Source: a virus | IMG/VR virus record: IMGVR_UViG_3300026512_000013 | Coordinates: 1-62,174 of that record | Length of the DNA: 62,174 bases | Strand: one strand, 5' to 3' | Shown here: one piece after another, positions 2,750 through 50,930 of the stretch | Layout: each line of letters starts with the position of its first letter | Numbering within the stretch: position 1 is the first letter of the stretch | Made by a program: the position numbers and the translations under genes | The notes under the pieces: model-generated | Told to the model about the DNA's origin: nothing | Databases searched by the model: none | Seen by the model: the letters and a program-made list of their open reading frames with translations, nothing else

Positions 2750-2769
2750 ATTAGAAAGTTATTAACATG

Positions 2770-3017
2770 TTATCAACAACTAAAAAAAGTTATCAACAAT
2801 TTATTGACTTATGCACAATTTTATTATATACTGTGCATAACTTAAAGAAATAAAAGTTATTAACAAGTTATTAACAATTTTATCAACAACTCAAAAAGTT
2901 TACAATAAACTTACAATTGAGTAAGCGTGACTTATTAACAATTTATGTTATAATGTTAATAACGTTATTCACAGTTTATCAACAACTTATTCACAGTTTA
3001 TCAACAGTTTATCAACA
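2770..3017. other. Cluster of DnaA-box-like 9-mers (candidate origin core)
   Basis: TTATCAACA occurs at 2770, 2790, 2880, 2976, 2998 and 3009. TTATTCACA occurs at 2965 and 2987. TTATGCACA occurs at 2809, with its reverse complement at 2832-2840. The last two words fit the DnaA consensus TTATNCACA exactly; TTATCAACA differs from TTATCCACA by one base. Such a density over 250 bp is far above chance, although the DNA is AT-rich. Confidence 0.65.
2927..2954 (+). promoter_or_regulatory. Candidate plus-strand promoter inside the DnaA-box cluster
   Basis: GTGACT, a 16-base spacer and TATAAT (2949-2954). It would transcribe rightward into the structured segment and the terminator at 3275-3315, giving an RNA of about 350 nt with no reading frame. 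Confidence 0.45.
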
Positions 3018-3019
3018 GA

Positions 3020-3031
3020 GAACAAATGTTC
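3020..3031. promoter_or_regulatory. LexA/DinR-like box GAACAAATGTTC
   Basis: Fits GAAC-RNRY-GTTC exactly. A near-identical context (AGAGAACAA-TGTTCG) recurs at 9837-9852. Confidence 0.5.
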
Positions 3032-3180
3032 GATTTTAAGCGAAAATTCTAAATTTTTCAAACTAATGTTTGGTAAACAGAACAGTACAAATGTAAACTA
3101 AATTCTATAAATGTAATATATAATTTAATTTACAAAAATAAATTTTCAATTACAAAAGAAAATCAAAAAACATTTGAGAT

Positions 3181-3315
3181 TTTTGAAATGTGCCGCTGAG
3201 GGACAATATACGTCCCATAGCACGAATTTTCAGATGTGCCGCCTAGATTACAATGTTTAATTATTATTCTAATTAAAAAAAGACTAATTAAAATTAATTA
3301 ATTAGTCTTTTTTTT
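3181..3315 (+). ncRNA. Candidate structured RNA, copy A, with terminator
   Basis: GC-richer than its surroundings. It contains two copies of a word like TTTTCAGATGTGCCGC (3181-3195 and 3227-3242) and a GGGAC/GTCCC hairpin between them, and it ends in a stem-loop plus T-run at 3275-3315. The stretch 3222-3242 matches 9949-9969 at 19 of 21 bases, so this module exists twice. No reading frame. Direction is inferred from the T-run and the candidate promoter at 2927. Confidence 0.45.
3275..3315. terminator. Bidirectional intrinsic terminator
   Basis: The stem AGACTAATTA/TAATTAGTCT is flanked by an A-run on the left and a T-run on the right. The stop codon of the minus-strand gene at 3294 lies inside the hairpin. 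Confidence 0.75.
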
Positions 3316-4238
3316 ACACCTCTATATTTATTATTTTCTTTTCTACTTAACCAACAACATGTATCTTTTGAATATATTCTTTTACTGTGAGGTAAATTAA
3401 ATTGTAATTTGTCTTTGTCCAAATCTAATTTATTATTTAATATTTTACTTTCATTGTACCCTTCTAATTTAATTATATCTAAAAGATAGTTGTCAAACCT
3501 AAACCAACTTTTATGAACAGTAATTCCCTTTGCACCATAGTTATGAAAATTTTTACTATTTTTATTATAACAACGTATTATCATACCATCCCATCTATCA
3601 TATAATGTATCTTTTAAACTTTGACTAATAGGGATATATTTACTATACCCTTGCGTTTTATTAAAACTAGTATATTTAAGATAATCAGTAAATTTATTAA
3701 GTATAATATCATGAAAATTACAATGCCAAATTGCATTGTTTTTGTGTCCTTTAACTATATAGCAATCCTTTAATCTACTTTTAGCAATTACAGTAACCTT
3801 TTGATTATCTGATTGATAAGTATATCCAACTTTTATATTATCATAATATTTATCTCTAATTTCACCAGTCCATACATGATGTTGTTGTTCTAATTGCTCA
3901 TTTCCACTATTAATAAATTTAATCAAATAATGTTTTCTATTATCATTTTTATTATATTTTATTATTAATCCACTACCTATTAACATAAATTTCCCATATT
4001 GATTAGTATTAAATATTTGTCCTAAATATGCATTTTTAGATATACTAACATCATATACACTTCCCATATTAACTTGTTTACTTCGTGCCCACTTTTTAAA
4101 ATTAGTATTTATAAATTCAATATTATACCCTTTTCTTTTATTTCTTATTTCAAAATTTAATACTTTATATTTACCACAATTATTACTTTCATATATATTA
4201 CCTATTTCAATGTTATACTTTTGATATGTTTCTTTCAT
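3294..4238 (-). CDS. HNH-type homing-endonuclease-like protein, 314 aa
   Basis: The C-terminal half carries the pattern of a phage HNH-like family: W-D-G-M-I-x-R-C-Y-N, then HNYGAKGITVHKSWFRFDNY, then LDLDKD and YSKDTCCWLSRKENN. The N-terminal half contains several short repeated modules of the form G-x-I/V-Y/F-x-S/T-N-x-x-G-K, probably DNA-binding. Free-standing proteins of this type spread by cutting DNA next to their own gene. A dedicated promoter (4287-4315) and terminator isolate it. It is related to the genes at 20611 and 12407. Catalytic activity is inferred, not seen. Confidence 0.75.
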   Translation of the reverse strand: MKETYQKYNIEIGNIYESNNCGKYKVLNFEIRNKRKGYNIEFINTNFKKWARSKQVNMGSVYDVSISKNAYLGQIFNTNQYGKFMLIGSGLIIKYNKNDNRKHYLIKFINSGNEQLEQQHHVWTGEIRDKYYDNIKVGYTYQSDNQKVTVIAKSRLKDCYIVKGHKNNAIWHCNFHDIILNKFTDYLKYTSFNKTQGYSKYIPISQSLKDTLYDRWDGMIIRCYNKNSKNFHNYGAKGITVHKSWFRFDNYLLDIIKLEGYNESKILNNKLDLDKDKLQFNLPHSKRIYSKDTCCWLSRKENNKYRGVKKRLIN

Positions 4239-9040: not shown

Positions 9041-9358
9041 TTATTTTGAATAATTATTTAATAAATTTTCAACTCTAATTATATTCGCTTGAATATTTGT
9101 TAATATAAAATCATATTCAAATTTATTCACTTTTGCAATTTCTCTTTCATACCCTTTTACGGTTTTAGTATCATTTGCTTTTGTTAATATTGTAAATAAA
9201 TTTTTAACACCTTTTGAAAAATAAATACTTATATCATTTCTTTCTTCTTCATTAATTATTTTTTTTTCTAATAACTCAGACAATTTCATTTCTAAATTAG
9301 ATACTTTTTCACTTTTTAAAATTGTTAATGTTTTTTCTACCATTTGATTTTTAGTCAT
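9041..9358 (-). CDS. Helical hypothetical protein, 105 aa
   Basis: Predicted all-helical, with leucine-spaced segments (MKLSELLEKKIINEEERNDI). No known family. First gene after the promoter at 9407-9434. Confidence 0.6.
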   Translation of the reverse strand: MTKNQMVEKTLTILKSEKVSNLEMKLSELLEKKIINEEERNDISIYFSKGVKNLFTILTKANDTKTVKGYEREIAKVNKFEYDFILTNIQANIIRVENLLNNYSK

Positions 9359-9406
9359 TTTAATTACTTCCTTTCAATAGTTTATGTATTCCCTTTGATT
9401 AATTAC

Positions 9407-9434
9407 AGTATATCACATTGATATTATAAGTCAA
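9407..9434 (-). promoter_or_regulatory. Early promoter (9041-8596 pair)
   Basis: TTGACT (9429-9434), 16-base spacer, TATACT (9407-9412). It marks the right edge of the early-gene block. Confidence 0.7.
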
Positions 9435-9597
9435 GTTTTTTAATATTTATTTTTAGTTTATTCTCATTAATTTTTTCTCTTCCTTTATATAAGATAATTA
9501 TAACGCTATTTTTACATTAATTATATACTATATAAGGAAGAGAAAAATTATTTTGATTTCATTACCAACTATCAACTGAAAATAATTAAAATAATGT

Positions 9598-9626
9598 TTG
9601 CAATTTAATTAAACTTATGATATACT
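9598..9626 (+). promoter_or_regulatory. Candidate plus-strand promoter for the region B RNA
   Basis: TTGCAA, 17-base spacer, TATACT (9621-9626). A transcript would run about 420 nt to the terminator at 10018-10051 and contains no reading frame of note. Confidence 0.5.
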
Positions 9627-9672
9627 GTATTTAAGTTAAAGAAGTAAAGAAAAGAAATAGAGAAGTAAAGAA

Positions 9673-9702
9673 ATTAAAATTAAAATTAAAATTAAAATTA
9701 AA
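9673..9702. repeat. Five tandem ATTAAA repeats
   Basis: Perfect 6-bp tandem repeat in non-coding DNA, within the possible plus-strand transcript. Confidence 0.8.
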
Positions 9703-9840
9703 TAAAAAAATAAGTTAAAAAATGATACTAATATAATTTAGTTGGAAAAATTCCACCTCGATAACCACTATCAACGCAAACAATATGGGGAGTATATTTT
9801 TTTGGACTTATCGAACATAGTTTATTAATTTTAAAAAAGA

Positions 9841-9888
9841 GAACAATTGTTCGGAAAACTTCTGTTCTATATTATCGAACACTTGTTT
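9841..9888. promoter_or_regulatory. Two LexA-like boxes
   Basis: GAACAATTGTTC (9841-9852) is a perfect palindrome, and GAACACTTGTTT (9877-9888) is a near match. Both resemble GAAC-RNRY-GTTC with one or two deviations. Confidence 0.45.
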
Positions 9889-9939
9889 TGTATTATAAAA
9901 ATTACGAATGTAAAATTAAGATTACAAATGAGAAAAAAG

Positions 9940-10051
9940 TTACTGAAACGAATTTTCAAATGTCCCGCTGAGCTATGACAATCTGGCGACACTGTCTTGC
10001 CGACATAGATTTACATTAAACTATTATAATTAAATTATAATAGTTTTTTTA
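9940..10051 (+). ncRNA. Candidate structured RNA, copy B, with terminator
   Basis: ACGAATTTTCAAATGTCCCGC at 9949-9969 repeats 3222-3242 with two changes. It is followed by GC-richer, hairpin-prone sequence (CTGGCGACACTGTCTTGCCG) and a terminator. No reading frame. The order LexA-like box, AT-rich stretch, conserved word, plus-strand terminator is the same in both copies. Confidence 0.45.
10018..10051 (+). terminator. Plus-strand intrinsic terminator
   Basis: AAACTATTATAAT/ATTATAATAGTTT stem with TTTTTTT. It is one of the few strong plus-strand terminators and supports a real plus-strand transcript here. Confidence 0.75.
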
Positions 10052-10086
10052 TTGTCTACAATTAATAACATATAGTATTTTATAAT

Positions 10087-10115
10087 AAAAAAAAGAGTGA
10101 TTATTAATCACTCTT
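10087..10115 (-). terminator. Intrinsic terminator of the 12232-10145 operon
   Basis: GAGTGATTATTAATCACTC hairpin with an eight-A run that becomes U on the minus-strand transcript. Confidence 0.8.
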
Positions 10116-10144
10116 AATTTATTTACTTTATTATATTTTATTAT

Positions 10145-10528
10145 TTATCTACTTATTGTAAAGCTATCTTTTAATGTTAAATCATCATAATATATATTTA
10201 CTAATATTTTTGTTGAAGTTAAATTAATAACTGATACATCTCCATTAATATAACAGAAATACTCGTCTGTTTTCTTTCCATTCATAAATCCTGTAACCTT
10301 ATAACCATAGTTCTCAATTTTATTTTCAATAGTCCTATTTAAACTTATAGTTTGTGTTGATGTCGATGTATTAGATGATACATTATTTCTATTGTCATTA
10401 TCGCTACTTAGATGTGCTATTAATAGTGAGAATAATAATAATATTATCACTATAGCAAGAGTTATACTCCCATCACTTTCTATTCTTTTATTATTATTAT
10501 TGTTAATAGTATTAATATTATTTTCCAT
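10145..10528 (-). CDS. Membrane-anchored hypothetical protein, 127 aa
   Basis: A short Asn-rich N-terminus is followed by one hydrophobic segment (LAIVIILLLFSLLIAHL, about residues 24-40) and an outer beta-rich domain of about 75 residues. This type-II topology with a small beta-sandwich resembles FxLYD-like cell-envelope domains, but the match is only by pattern. It is last in an operon with a lytic transglycosylase and other membrane proteins, so an envelope role is likely. Confidence 0.65.
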   Translation of the reverse strand: MENNINTINNNNNKRIESDGSITLAIVIILLLFSLLIAHLSSDNDNRNNVSSNTSTSTQTISLNRTIENKIENYGYKVTGFMNGKKTDEYFCYINGDVSVINLTSTKILVNIYYDDLTLKDSFTISR

Positions 10529-16131: not shown

Positions 16132-16153
16132 TTTATCTTCTCCTTTTAATAGT

Positions 16154-16342
16154 TTAATATAAATCTTCAGACAATCTATTTAAATCGTCTAATATCTCTT
16201 CTTTTGTATAATTATCATCATTCTCAATTTCTTCAATAATATTATTAACAACGCTTTCAATCTCATCTAATATTCTATCTACAGTTTCAGCATCATATAC
16301 TTCAGTTGCTCCATTATTAATTTTATCCCTATACATTCCCAT
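16154..16342 (-). CDS. Acidic small protein, 62 aa
   Basis: Begins MGMYRDKINNGATEVYDAET. ATG at 16342 is preferred over an upstream ATG because AAGGAGA lies nine bases before it. The rest is helical and acidic (ILDEIESVVNNIIEEIENDD). First gene after the promoter at 16525, with a repeated structured element in its leader. Confidence 0.6.
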   Translation of the reverse strand: MGMYRDKINNGATEVYDAETVDRILDEIESVVNNIIEEIENDDNYTKEEILDDLNRLSEDLY

Positions 16343-16375
16343 TAATTTCACTCTCCTTAAATTCAATATGGCTCA

Positions 16376-16485
16376 ATATAACGCTTATACAGAGCTTTTA
16401 ATACTTACAGGTCTAATAACACTCTGACACCCTAAAACACTCTAAAAACAGCTTGTAGGACGTCATAGCACTATATACTTGTTAT
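16376..16485 (-). repeat. Conserved structured element, copy 1
   Basis: Contains TACAGAGCTTTTAAT (16388-16402), identical in copies at 47391 and 61086. The neighbourhood folds into a hairpin built from TTTTA/TAAAA and CAG/CTG pairs. Here it lies between a promoter and the first gene, so it is transcribed as a leader. Confidence 0.65.
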
Positions 16486-16524
16486 TCTAACTCTCAATAT
16501 TGTGTTGTCTTGTTGATATATCTT

Positions 16525-16553
16525 ATTATACACTAATTAATATATACTGTCAA
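16525..16553 (-). promoter_or_regulatory. Sigma-A promoter of the nucleotide-metabolism operon
   Basis: TTGACA (16548-16553), 17-base spacer, TATAAT (16525-16530). It drives 16154 through dut and the frameshifted endonuclease gene. Confidence 0.8.
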
Positions 16554-16590
16554 GAAAATAGTTATTATTAATGTTGATAAATTAATGTTG

Positions 16591-16637
16591 ATAAAAATAA
16601 AGGTACACTTAGTATTAATTCCAATACTGAGTATACC
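16591..16637 (-). terminator. Terminator overlapping the end of the 32-aa gene
   Basis: GGTATACTCAGTATT/AATACTAAGTGTACC stem followed on the minus strand by TTTATTTTTAT. Confidence 0.65.
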
Positions 16638-16713
16638 AATTTACATTACGTATGATATCATCTATATTATTATCACTATTATTAAATAATATATCAATAA
16701 AAAATGGGAACAT
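16615..16713 (-). CDS. Small hypothetical peptide, 32 aa
   Basis: MFPFFIDILFNNSDNN then a short acidic and aromatic tail. GAGAGGTG precedes ATG by six bases, a promoter lies at 16759-16787 and a terminator follows. This complete stand-alone unit makes the tiny gene credible. Confidence 0.5.
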   Translation of the reverse strand: MFPFFIDILFNNSDNNIDDIIRNVNWYTQYWN

Positions 16714-16758
16714 ATTATCACCTCTCTTAATATTATTATGTTATTTTAACACTAAGAG

Positions 16759-16787
16759 AGTGTATCATATAATAATAATTTTGTCAA
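16759..16787 (-). promoter_or_regulatory. Promoter of the 32-aa gene
   Basis: TTGACA (16782-16787), 17-base spacer, TACACT (16759-16764). An ACACT-AAG-AGTGT palindrome overlaps the start. Confidence 0.55.
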
Positions 16788-16811
16788 GTTTATCACAGGA
16801 TAATATAATAG

Positions 16812-33383: not shown

Positions 33384-36300
33384 TTAATCTTCATTCTCAC
33401 TAATATCATCTTCATATTCATTATCTAAAGTGTCTAATATATTATCAACAGTACCATAGTCTAAAAAATGTCTTAAATAAGCTTGACTTAATACAGTTTC
33501 ACTTGTATCAATAGCTTTATGTAAAGCCTCATTCTCAGCAACTAACCATACTTTCTCTTTACCTCTACTTAACATTACATAAAGTATTTGTCTATTTAAC
33601 ATAGTCCAACCACTTGTTGATAAGGCTAACACTGCATAATCTACTTCACTACCTTGAAATTTATGAGCTGTACAAGCATAAAATAATACTAAACCTCTTT
33701 GACTATCCCATAATGAACTTGGGATTGCTATATATTTATCTATGTCATCTACATAAACTATTATATCTTTAGGATTATCTTTTTCATCATAAGTAGCATC
33801 AATAACAGTTCCACCAAAACCATTGAATACTGCATCATCATTAAGATTTCTATCTCTTGTGCCATCATGTCTTAATAACCAAGGCTTAAAAATAACTTTC
33901 CATTCATTATCTACTAACTCAACTTCTTCAGTACTATAATCATTTTTAATAATCATAACTCTATCATTTATTCTAAATACAAATGGATAACTTGGATTGT
34001 CTTTATTATCAGTAGCATAACCTACAGCACCTTCTATCTCTACAGATTTTCCATTCGTAGGGCTTGTTTTAGGTGTAGGATTTAAATACTCTTGAGCCAT
34101 ATTATTTAAATTATACACACTTGAGTCACCTCTGGTAGTTACAGTAGTAATCATTAAAGCTCTCTTAGTATCTCCATTAGCTAATTTAAGAGCTTGCTTA
34201 TAGTAATCAAAAGTCTTTATAGCACATGTATCACGATTATTATATTTACTTAAAAATATATCAGTAACTAAATCTTTAACTTCACCTTCACATTCTACTC
34301 CCTCATATTGCTTATGATATAATTGTTCACCTTTAGCTACTTTAAGAGATATATTTTTAATTTGAGAACCATCTTTTTGTCTAAATAATTTAGTTAATTC
34401 AAACACAGGAATTGTTTTACTCTCTAATAATTCAATGCCTAATTTAGCTCCTCTAATAGCATTTAATTGAGATACATCACCTAAGAATATTAATTTAGTT
34501 GAAGTTGATATTGCTTTTAATAAATTTAATAATAACCAAGCATCTACCATTGAAAATTCATCTATAACTATTACATCATAAGGCATTTTACATTTTTCAT
34601 GATAAGTAAAATACATCATGCGACCAGTTTCTTCATCAACTCCCCAACCTTGAGGATTAAATCCTAATAATCTATGGATAGTTGAAGCACTAAAGTCTGA
34701 TACTTGCTGTATTCTTGCACTAGCTTTGCCCGATAAAGTTGAAAGCCTTGGAGCTACTGGATTTAACGCTTTAACTGCAACATCAGCTATTGAAGTCTTG
34801 CCCGAATTTCCTGTAATAAATATTCTATTATCTCTTCTTAGTATCAACATTCCACTCGGAACAGTGAAGCAATATTTATAGTTATCTTCTAATTGATTAC
34901 TAAATAAATGTCTTATCTCAAGTAAATGATATTCAACATTTATAAACATATTATCTACCATAATATACATAGTACTTTTTGCATCATCATCTAATTTTAA
35001 AAATTCTGCCACAGTGATTTTAAGATAATCTATTTTTGTAGTAGGTATATCAGCTACTTGATTAACATCTATATATACCATTTTATGTTCTAATGACAAT
35101 ACTTGCTTACCATATCTCCCATAATTAAACTCTACTAAGCATTCATTCTCTTCAAGTTCATAATTATGATATTCCTCAATATCAGTTAATTCTTGTTCAC
35201 CATCTGAATTATATTGTAATACTTTTTCACCTTCAGTATAATCACATATTTGTTTCCATTCTACCCCATTAAAATATTCAGTCTCAGAGTCAACACAACC
35301 ACCACGCCCCGTAACTATGCCAACTTTTTTATCCATAATAAATTCAATAGCATCTCTTTGTTCATCTGAATATTCCCAACCATTGCGTTTTTGTTGACTT
35401 TCAATAATAGTATTAGCAATCTCTTTATCTTCATTTAAATAAGATTTTCCATTGATTATCCTTTTTAACTCTTTAGCTATTGCCTTCTCATTATAATAGT
35501 GTTTAGATAAACCTACTAACCCTTGAATACCATCAACTAATAATTTTTCTTCTCTTAATTGAATAACAACTTCTGCTATCTCATCAACAGTAAATTCAGT
35601 ATCAAATAAATCTTCATCAATATGATTGATTAAAACATCACTTTCTAAATAAGAATAACCATTATCATAAGCACTATCTAATAAAAATAATATATAAGCT
35701 CTTAATCTTTCTGGTGAATCTCTATCTATACCCACATTTCTTGCCATATCATCTGCTTTAGCAAATGAGAAACCTACTATTTCAACTAATTTATATGGAT
35801 TGCTTTTAATAATTTCAATAGCAGTTTCTGCTGAATGAAAGTAGTCTACTACTTTTTTAATTGAATTAACTGAAATTTCATAATCAGCTAAACCAGCATA
35901 AGCTTTAATATAAGCTTTATTACTTTCATATTTTTTAAATAAATTTAATACAGTTACTTCACCTAATCCTTTAACTTTCATTAAAGCTTCAGTATCACCA
36001 GAAACAATATACTTTAAAGGTTTATCATATACTGCAAATAAATTCTCAAATTGAGTCTCAGTTAATATTCCTTTGAAAAAACCTCTTTGTGTATCTTCAG
36101 TTGCATTAATATCTAAATTTTCAGTACACACTACATTACTAAAACTATAACCATATTTATCATGAATATCTTTAACTTTAGCTACAATATAATATTCTTT
36201 ATCAAAATTATTTCTAAAATTATGAGGTAACCCTATCCCTGCTATTGATACATTTCCATAAAAATTAATAGGAATAGGGATAATTTCATCTGTACTCACA

Positions 36301-36473
36301 ACTTCAAATCTTAGTATAGAATGCTCACCAGCATGAAAAGGTTTATTATTCTTAGGATAAGCTTGAGGTGATTTTCTACTTACTTTTCCAATAAATTTTA
36401 CAATATCCCCAATTTCGTATTTAGTTTTAGTTCTCTTTTTACCTATTCCCTTTTTTATATTATTCTTTGACAT
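33384..36473 (-). CDS. RecD2-type SF1 helicase interrupted by an intein, 1029 aa
   Basis: N-terminal OB-like and helix-hairpin-helix regions (LKYIVSGDTEALMKVKGLGE, then TVLNLFKKYES) as in RecD2. The Walker A loop GRGG-SGKTS is split by a 164-aa intein (residues 393-556). IDEFSMVDAWLL is Walker B, TKLIFLGDVSQLNAI is motif III, and YACTAHKFQGSEVD, then YVMLSRGKE, are motifs V-VI. The spliced protein would be 865 aa, a normal RecD2 length. Role: 5'-3' unwinding in replication or repair. Without splicing the ATP site cannot form. Confidence 0.88.
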   Translation of the reverse strand: MSKNNIKKGIGKKRTKTKYEIGDIVKFIGKVSRKSPQAYPKNNKPFHAGEHSILRFEVVSTDEIIPIPINFYGNVSIAGIGLPHNFRNNFDKEYYIVAKVKDIHDKYGYSFSNVVCTENLDINATEDTQRGFFKGILTETQFENLFAVYDKPLKYIVSGDTEALMKVKGLGEVTVLNLFKKYESNKAYIKAYAGLADYEISVNSIKKVVDYFHSAETAIEIIKSNPYKLVEIVGFSFAKADDMARNVGIDRDSPERLRAYILFLLDSAYDNGYSYLESDVLINHIDEDLFDTEFTVDEIAEVVIQLREEKLLVDGIQGLVGLSKHYYNEKAIAKELKRIINGKSYLNEDKEIANTIIESQQKRNGWEYSDEQRDAIEFIMDKKVGIVTGRGGCVDSETEYFNGVEWKQICDYTEGEKVLQYNSDGEQELTDIEEYHNYELEENECLVEFNYGRYGKQVLSLEHKMVYIDVNQVADIPTTKIDYLKITVAEFLKLDDDAKSTMYIMVDNMFINVEYHLLEIRHLFSNQLEDNYKYCFTVPSGMLILRRDNRIFITGNSGKTSIADVAVKALNPVAPRLSTLSGKASARIQQVSDFSASTIHRLLGFNPQGWGVDEETGRMMYFTYHEKCKMPYDVIVIDEFSMVDAWLLLNLLKAISTSTKLIFLGDVSQLNAIRGAKLGIELLESKTIPVFELTKLFRQKDGSQIKNISLKVAKGEQLYHKQYEGVECEGEVKDLVTDIFLSKYNNRDTCAIKTFDYYKQALKLANGDTKRALMITTVTTRGDSSVYNLNNMAQEYLNPTPKTSPTNGKSVEIEGAVGYATDNKDNPSYPFVFRINDRVMIIKNDYSTEEVELVDNEWKVIFKPWLLRHDGTRDRNLNDDAVFNGFGGTVIDATYDEKDNPKDIIVYVDDIDKYIAIPSSLWDSQRGLVLFYACTAHKFQGSEVDYAVLALSTSGWTMLNRQILYVMLSRGKEKVWLVAENEALHKAIDTSETVLSQAYLRHFLDYGTVDNILDTLDNEYEDDISENED
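34806..35297 (-). other. Mini-intein in the Walker A loop, 164 aa
   Basis: Starts with Cys 393 (CVDSETEYFNGVEWKQICD), has block B SLEHKMVY, ends with FTVPSGMLILRR and IFITGN, and is followed by Ser +1. The penultimate residue is Gly where His is usual; the V-P-S-G-x-x-I/V-x-R-R and I-T-G-N-S ending is a phage-intein pattern. No homing-endonuclease domain. Removing it restores GRGGSGKTS. Confidence 0.88.
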
Positions 36474-50081: not shown

Positions 50082-50930
50082 TTAAAATAAATTATTAGTT
50101 GCATTTCTTTTTGACTCTTTACTACTGTCTAAATAAATTTGAGTAGTAGTAATTTGTTTATGGTTCATTAACTCTCTTACAGTATTAATATCAGTAACTT
50201 TAATAGCCATAGATGCAAATGAAGCTCTTAAAGTATGAGTATGTTGTAACTCAATATCATTAGTAACTAATTTAAGATATTTTTTAGCAACTCTCTCAGC
50301 ACTTCTATTAGATAATTTAGTCTTTTGATTAGATAAAAATAAATAATTACTATCTACATTAGGTCTCTCATTGTTAATATAGTTATCAATACTCTTCATA
50401 GCTTTATCATTAATAGGCAATACTCTACGCTCTCCTCCTTTTCTTATAATAGTAACTTCATTAGTATCATAATTAATATTGTTTAATTGAACATTGCATA
50501 TCTCATTTAATCTCATTCCTGTTGCTAATGATAAAGTAATAAAACATTCATCTCTTAAATTTTTCTTTTCAATAGATAATAACTTATTAACTTGAGTCTC
50601 ATTTAAAGCTCTACGTTTAGTATCATCTTTCTTAATTTTAAAAGTTCTTAATTTAAGAGAAGGATTGCTTTCAATAACTTCAATATCAGTTAGAAAACTA
50701 TAATATTTTTTTAATGAAACAATATAATTATTAATAGTGTTTAAGCTCATAGAAGCCATTCTAAGCTCTTTTATTATGCTTGCCAACTCAAAGTACCTAG
50801 AGTTGATTAAATCGTGTGTATGGGCGATTTTGACAACGTTAGAGCTATATTTATCAATACTTAATTGTGCTAAATTCTCATTGTATCTCATATAGTCTTT
50901 CCATTCATTAATATAATTATTAGTTTTCAT
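50082..50930 (-). CDS. Tyrosine recombinase (integrase/Xer type), 282 aa
   Basis: N-terminal SAM-like DNA-binding domain (MRYNENLAQLSIDKYSSNVV). Catalytic residues in order: ATGMRLNEICNVQL (Arg), IIRKGGERRVLPI (Lys), HTLRASFAS (His-x-x-Arg), MNHKQITTTQIYL (His and Tyr). Short and Xer-like, without a large core-binding insertion. It may integrate the element or resolve multimers if it replicates as a plasmid. Monocistronic with its own promoter; no att site is obvious. Confidence 0.88.
   Translation of the reverse strand: MKTNNYINEWKDYMRYNENLAQLSIDKYSSNVVKIAHTHDLINSRYFELASIIKELRMASMSLNTINNYIVSLKKYYSFLTDIEVIESNPSLKLRTFKIKKDDTKRRALNETQVNKLLSIEKKNLRDECFITLSLATGMRLNEICNVQLNNINYDTNEVTIIRKGGERRVLPINDKAMKSIDNYINNERPNVDSNYLFLSNQKTKLSNRSAERVAKKYLKLVTNDIELQHTHTLRASFASMAIKVTDINTVRELMNHKQITTTQIYLDSSKESKRNATNNLF

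Follow-up and report, generated by a model that had tools for sequence, protein, structure and literature searches.

A phased cluster of DnaA boxes beside Fur-box-like repeats in an SPbeta-like phage fragment, a plausible origin of replication

In the bipartite oriC of Bacillota, i.e., of B. subtilis and C. difficile, a cluster of DnaA boxes is accompanied by adjoining unstable DNA (PMC7561715). A criterion quoted for such origins is the presence of at least three DnaA boxes at an average spacing of less than 100 bp, and a search for clostridial oriC regions allowed one mismatch, so that variant boxes were counted there too (PMC7561715). The closest parallel to the cluster described here is found in the 132-kb Clostridioides phage ES-S-0107-01 (CP067347) and the 132-kb plasmid pZ1322PCD0028-2 (NZ_CP149699), in which TTATCAACA and TTATTAACA words occur and an inverted box is followed by an 11-bp-phased run ending in TTATCAACAG, as in our phage, again in AT-rich surroundings. 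In the annotated NZ_CP149699 this array adjoins genes for a DnaD-like loader/replication-initiation-like protein and a ParM-like partition protein. Differences consist in a smaller number of boxes and the lack of Fur boxes, and an origin role is putative there as well. A further related element is the annotated injection stop signal (iss, 9140-10149) of phage T5, in which DnaA boxes are located within and beside "direct repeat B," and in which "direct repeat C" as well as the palindromes E, G, and I resemble Fur boxes.

The window analyzed here is the complete IMG/VR record IMGVR_UViG_3300026512_000013 (62174 bp, GC content about 25%), which is classed as linear and therefore is probably a fragment. 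End repeats are absent from the 62174 bp, and nearly all genes reside on the minus strand. The encoded DnaE-type polymerase shows 33% identity over its full length to those of SPbeta phages including SPBc2 and about 32% identity to that of the phage-like plasmid pBS32, and a primase, a DnaB-type helicase, and Sak4 are encoded as well. A 196-kb IMG/VR contig shares the order of the replication genes, the primases of both being 40-42% identical. Judged from its sequence, the record is a 62-kb piece of an SPbeta-like phage, most likely with an AT-rich member of the Bacillota as host. No near relative of the phage was found, the best primase matches among 391 genomes of the class to which a Clostridium MAG belongs reaching 34-35%. 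Since the record contains no gene for DnaA, host DnaA is presumed to be the reader of the boxes; a gene for Fur is missing from the record too. Among the scanned proteins of the record there are no initiator, Rep, or partition proteins, and no initiator, loader, or partition gene was recognized adjoining the box cluster. The element might be a phage-plasmid, as had been considered possible, although the record is an incomplete linear contig that lacks end repeats and, if anything, its tyrosine integrase gene (50082-50930) points to integration. Elsewhere in the record, a RecD2-like helicase is encoded at 33384-36473, whose Walker A motif, by eye from the translation, seems to be split by an intein-like insert (GRGG-CVDSETE...FITGN-SGKTS). 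Near the left contig end, CTCAAATTTGGGCGTTAAAA recurs imperfectly at 116-366 in both inverted and direct orientation, and these copies are possibly operators or end-specific repeats. Three small genes directed leftward are each preceded by a hairpin (1063-1077, 1454-1470, and 1701-1718), and the same GTTACTTATGTT string follows two of these hairpins.

The original prediction had recognized a DnaA-box-like cluster composed of six TTATCAACA, two TTATTCACA, and an inverted TTATGCACA pair, and every one of these words is found where it had been placed, with TTATCAACA starting at 2770, 2790, 2880, 2976, 2998, and 3009, TTATTCACA at 2965 and 2987, and TTATGCACA at 2809 (+) and 2832 (-). The cluster is real and larger than had been noticed, as five further TTATTAACA words (2759, 2857, 2868, and 2932 on the plus and 2954 on the minus strand) had been overlooked, so that exact counting yields 15 TTATNNACA words at 2759-3017, 13 on the plus and 2 on the minus strand. 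Its phased core (2954-3017, +) consists of the inverted box TGTTAATAA at 2954 followed by five direct boxes (2965, 2976, 2987, 2998, and 3009), the start-to-start step of which is exactly 11 bp, and the boxes at 2932 and 2954 (-) are in the same register (all are 6 modulo 11). When the same 263 bp were shuffled 3000 times with dinucleotides preserved, a mean of 0.37 and a maximum of 4 boxes were obtained, as compared to the 15 observed. Had such words been equally frequent in other gene-less AT-rich parts, the prediction would have lost its basis; at most two TTATNNACA occur per 250 bp anywhere outside the cluster, and nine of ten other gene-less stretches checked hold at most one box, while 16132-16811 holds three. 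Shuffles and other gene-less regions thus rule out chance or AT-richness as cause of the cluster, and the DnaA-box element is real and strongly non-random.

The strict E. coli consensus TTWTNCACA is matched by 4 of the 15 boxes, the other 11 deviating at position 6. That such words are probably DnaA boxes nevertheless is supported by three lines, i.e., by a Clostridium MAG, by the Clostridioides phage and plasmid, and by phased arrays in IMG/VR. The Clostridium MAG, which possesses an SPbeta-like DnaE, contains TTATCTACA-GC-TTATTAACA-TG-TTATTCACA in 11-bp phase, and a non-consensus word of our cluster therefore does occur in phased arrangement in hosts of this type. Runs of four consecutive boxes with 11-bp steps are encountered in 89 IMG/VR stretches, as compared to 4 with the reversed control pattern. 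These 89 arrays are located mainly between predicted genes, and no conserved neighbor gene dominates among them, primases, initiators, DnaD-like and O-like proteins, terminases, and others being represented by a few each.

With 15 boxes in 259 bp, the cluster has the box number and density expected of an oriC-type origin, and adjacent AT-rich DNA of low computed stability, another oriC criterion, is present on both sides. The candidate unwinding element at 2641-2700, which includes an 18-bp tandem repeat, has the lowest duplex stability of the region and belongs to the lowest 0.3% of the window, and a second unstable stretch (3081-3160) belongs to the lowest 2-4%. Replication origin, as originally predicted, is a plausible and the leading reading, in favor of which speak the adjoining unstable DNA and the Clostridioides layout; against it stand the missing skew turn, DnaA-trio, and initiator, the deviation of 11 of the 15 boxes from the strict consensus, and the lack of such a cluster in the relatives checked. 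The expected GC-skew turning point near 2.2-3.0 kb did not materialize, the skew being negative on both sides, which is weak evidence given the almost complete confinement of genes to a single strand. No DnaA-trio preceded by a GC cluster was found next to a box, and A-rich triplet runs do exist, none of them in place. The gene-less region, the terminator-like hairpin at its end, and the phage replisome genes make an origin plausible, and we give an even chance to the cluster being a platform for host DnaA at which theta-type replication of this SPbeta-like phage would start, either in a plasmid state or in the first round after entry. Inheritance of such an origin together with the SPbeta-like replication module was considered and is unsupported, as the relatives checked are devoid of the cluster: no box triple exists in SPBc2, GR1, Enterococcus H1, or pBS32, nor in 38 IMG/VR records, many of them fragments, that encode a related primase. 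Phages sharing the module therefore seem to start replication otherwise, and the cluster seems to have been gained or kept separately.

From words, spacing, statistics, and parallels we infer a course of binding, opening, and replication in which host DnaA would bind the boxes, as word identity and clustering suggest, and would build a one-sided filament on the 11-bp-phased run. The resulting strain might open AT-rich DNA at 2641-2700 or 3081-3160, and the DnaB-type helicase, primase, and DnaE-type polymerase of the phage, the genes of which are present, would be recruited and take over. More speculatively, the Fur-box array might allow the iron regulator of the host to influence either this opening or the leftward promoter close by. 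If the cluster is an origin, an SPbeta-like phage with much of its own replisome leaves the starting decision to the DnaA of its host.

This Fur-box array corresponds to repeats that had been taken for iterons upstream of the boxes; repeats exist indeed, and it is their identity as iterons that does not hold, as they are Fur-box-like 15-17-mers at uneven spacings of 16-178 bp. An iteron plasmid origin is ruled out on these grounds and as no Rep is found among the scanned proteins. Nine Fur-box-like sites on the plus strand (2217, 2366, 2544, 2579, 2604, 2620, 2689, 2705, and 2735) extend over 2217-2749 and end 9 bp ahead of the first DnaA box. The site at 2366 is a perfect TGATAATNATTATCA 7-1-7 palindrome and the other eight carry one mismatch, matches being far more numerous than the shuffled mean of 0.001. 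The exact 17-mer TGATAATCATTCTCATT is present in Terribacillus between genes that, named by eye from their sequence, are siderophore-permease-like and ferredoxin-reductase-like, a setting as would be expected for a putative Fur box. A Priestia megaterium plasmid (L288, 3033-3080) likewise has Fur-box-like palindromes in the vicinity of genes for flavodoxin and siderophore uptake. Escherichia phage alia (L287, 2002-2095) has Fur-box-like repeats which in Justusliebigvirus are partly annotated as repeat_region, and Fur arrays are seen in several other IMG/VR phages (L249-L265). A search of IMG/VR for triplets of Fur boxes gave 17 matches, whereas a control pattern gave 1, so that phage Fur arrays reach beyond this record; in the contigs concerned not even two neighboring DnaA boxes were found.

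Such stand-alone Fur-box triplets also fit a distinctly unlikely reading in which both arrays serve as decoys that soak up host DnaA and Fur, with the effect that replication of the host is delayed and its genes for iron uptake are derepressed. Dense arrays for two unrelated host regulators, in the absence of nearby genes needing that many operators, would agree with such a sponge, and E. coli DnaA can be titrated by plasmid-borne DnaA boxes (PMC5835720). However, with two dozen sites per genome an effect would be expected chiefly if the copy number is high, and titration requires neither an exact 11-bp phasing nor a fixed orientation.

Alternatively, the sites might serve transcription, with DnaA, Fur, and LexA regulating promoters at 2804-2832, 2927-2954, and, leftward, around 2295-2323. 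Promoter-like sites do overlap the boxes, by consensus match only: one at 2804-2832 (+) is overlapped by the inverted TTATGCACA pair (2809-2840), and another, with TG before its -10 element, lies within the cluster at 2927-2954 (+). A LexA-box-like GAACAAATGTTC at 3020-3031 follows 2 bp past the last DnaA box, and two perfect 17-bp palindromes ACTTTATTTAATAAAGT (starting at 2274 and 2304, together 2274-2320) cover the leftward promoter-like site and are possible repressor operators. In NZ_CP149699, moreover, the phased run is situated upstream of a phage sigma-factor-like gene. Nevertheless, no ORF of more than 40 aa leads rightward from the site at 2927-2954 up to the terminator. No DnaA-regulated promoter is known to require nearly as many as 15 boxes, which also counts against this explanation, and we regard it as very unlikely. 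The right-hand boundary of the region is formed by a hairpin AAAAAAGACTAATTAA...TTAATTAGTCTTTTTT (3271-3316), likely a two-way terminator. LexA-like GAACNNNNGTTC sites start at 13, 3020, and 9841, all three in gene-less stretches. Amid AT-rich DNA, the segment 3189-3243 is markedly GC-rich and contains two copies of TGTGCCGC as well as a GGGAC/GTCCC hairpin; its folding as DNA is only weakly better than that of shuffles (z -1.3), and a structured RNA was discarded as there is no Rfam match.

BLAST searches with the region pointed to enterobacterial phages. In the T5-like phage PNJ1902, Fur-like repeats are followed by DnaA-box pairs such as TTATCCACAGACTTATCAACAG, and this block has matches in 591 phage records, mostly T5-like, 294 of which cover at least 80% of the block length. 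In T5 itself, the block lies inside the annotated iss, and order and polarity of Fur-like repeats and DnaA boxes are the same as in the window. In the distant members Proteus PM135 and a Klebsiella phage the DnaA boxes are kept and the Fur repeats are weaker. The compared loci came from searches for motifs or relatives and do not constitute a survey; among the other fetched loci, a clear composite of Fur and DnaA boxes is present in T5-like phages only, and both arrays together were not found in other array-bearing contigs. L258 was rejected as such a composite, its two DnaA words falling inside or between Fur repeats.

The T5 parallel raises the main rival to an origin, namely an element for docking of host proteins or for stopping, comparable to the T5 iss, in which a nucleoprotein block of DnaA and Fur would pause DNA entry or anchor the genome without any origin being involved. 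In favor of docking, DnaA boxes and Fur-box-like palindromes adjoin each other in the T5 iss with the same order and polarity as in the window, and the block recurs in hundreds of mostly T5-like phages. The location of the T5-like element in the injection-stop region, where no origin is annotated, counts against an origin. On the other hand, no terminal repeat or first-step-transfer organization is seen in the present fragment, its flanking genes are arranged in tandem and not convergently as in T5, and a role of DnaA or Fur in the T5 stop is not demonstrated in the literature that we found. Docking is unlikely in our estimation, and an origin remains the most likely function. Both phage groups might even represent convergence, unrelated phages of Bacillota and enterobacteria having built an element of a Fur array and outward-pointing DnaA boxes by which the onset of infection, either DNA entry or the first round of replication, is tied to the iron state and the replication initiator of the host, with the T5 iss as one case, a proposal that we consider quite doubtful. 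If the pairing of Fur and DnaA boxes is functional, it provides a testable handle on the part-way halt of T5 DNA, as both dnaA and fur are amenable to manipulation in laboratory E. coli. Literature searches for DnaA arrays or Fur boxes of phages yielded nothing on point with the terms employed, an earlier description of DnaA or Fur sites in the T5 iss being possible.

With SPbeta and GR1 phages and pBS32, the record shares a related DnaE-type polymerase (32-33% identity), whereas a DnaA-box triple is lacking in them. In comparison to the bipartite oriC of Bacillota, the phage cluster lacks a dnaA/dnaN context and a DnaA-trio, and most of its boxes depart from TTWTNCACA. Homology to T5 beyond the motifs was not seen in the window, and T5 and the matching blocks of other Demerecviridae have 2-4 boxes, located in T5 in a terminal repeat between convergent genes, in contrast to the 15 boxes found here. 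Nevertheless, the T5 iss and the corresponding block of the Demerecviridae have in common with the window that Fur-box-like repeats are followed by outward-pointing DnaA boxes in mostly gene-less DNA. The DnaA-box element thus is of a kind known from other phages, and it is its Fur-box companion that is unusual.
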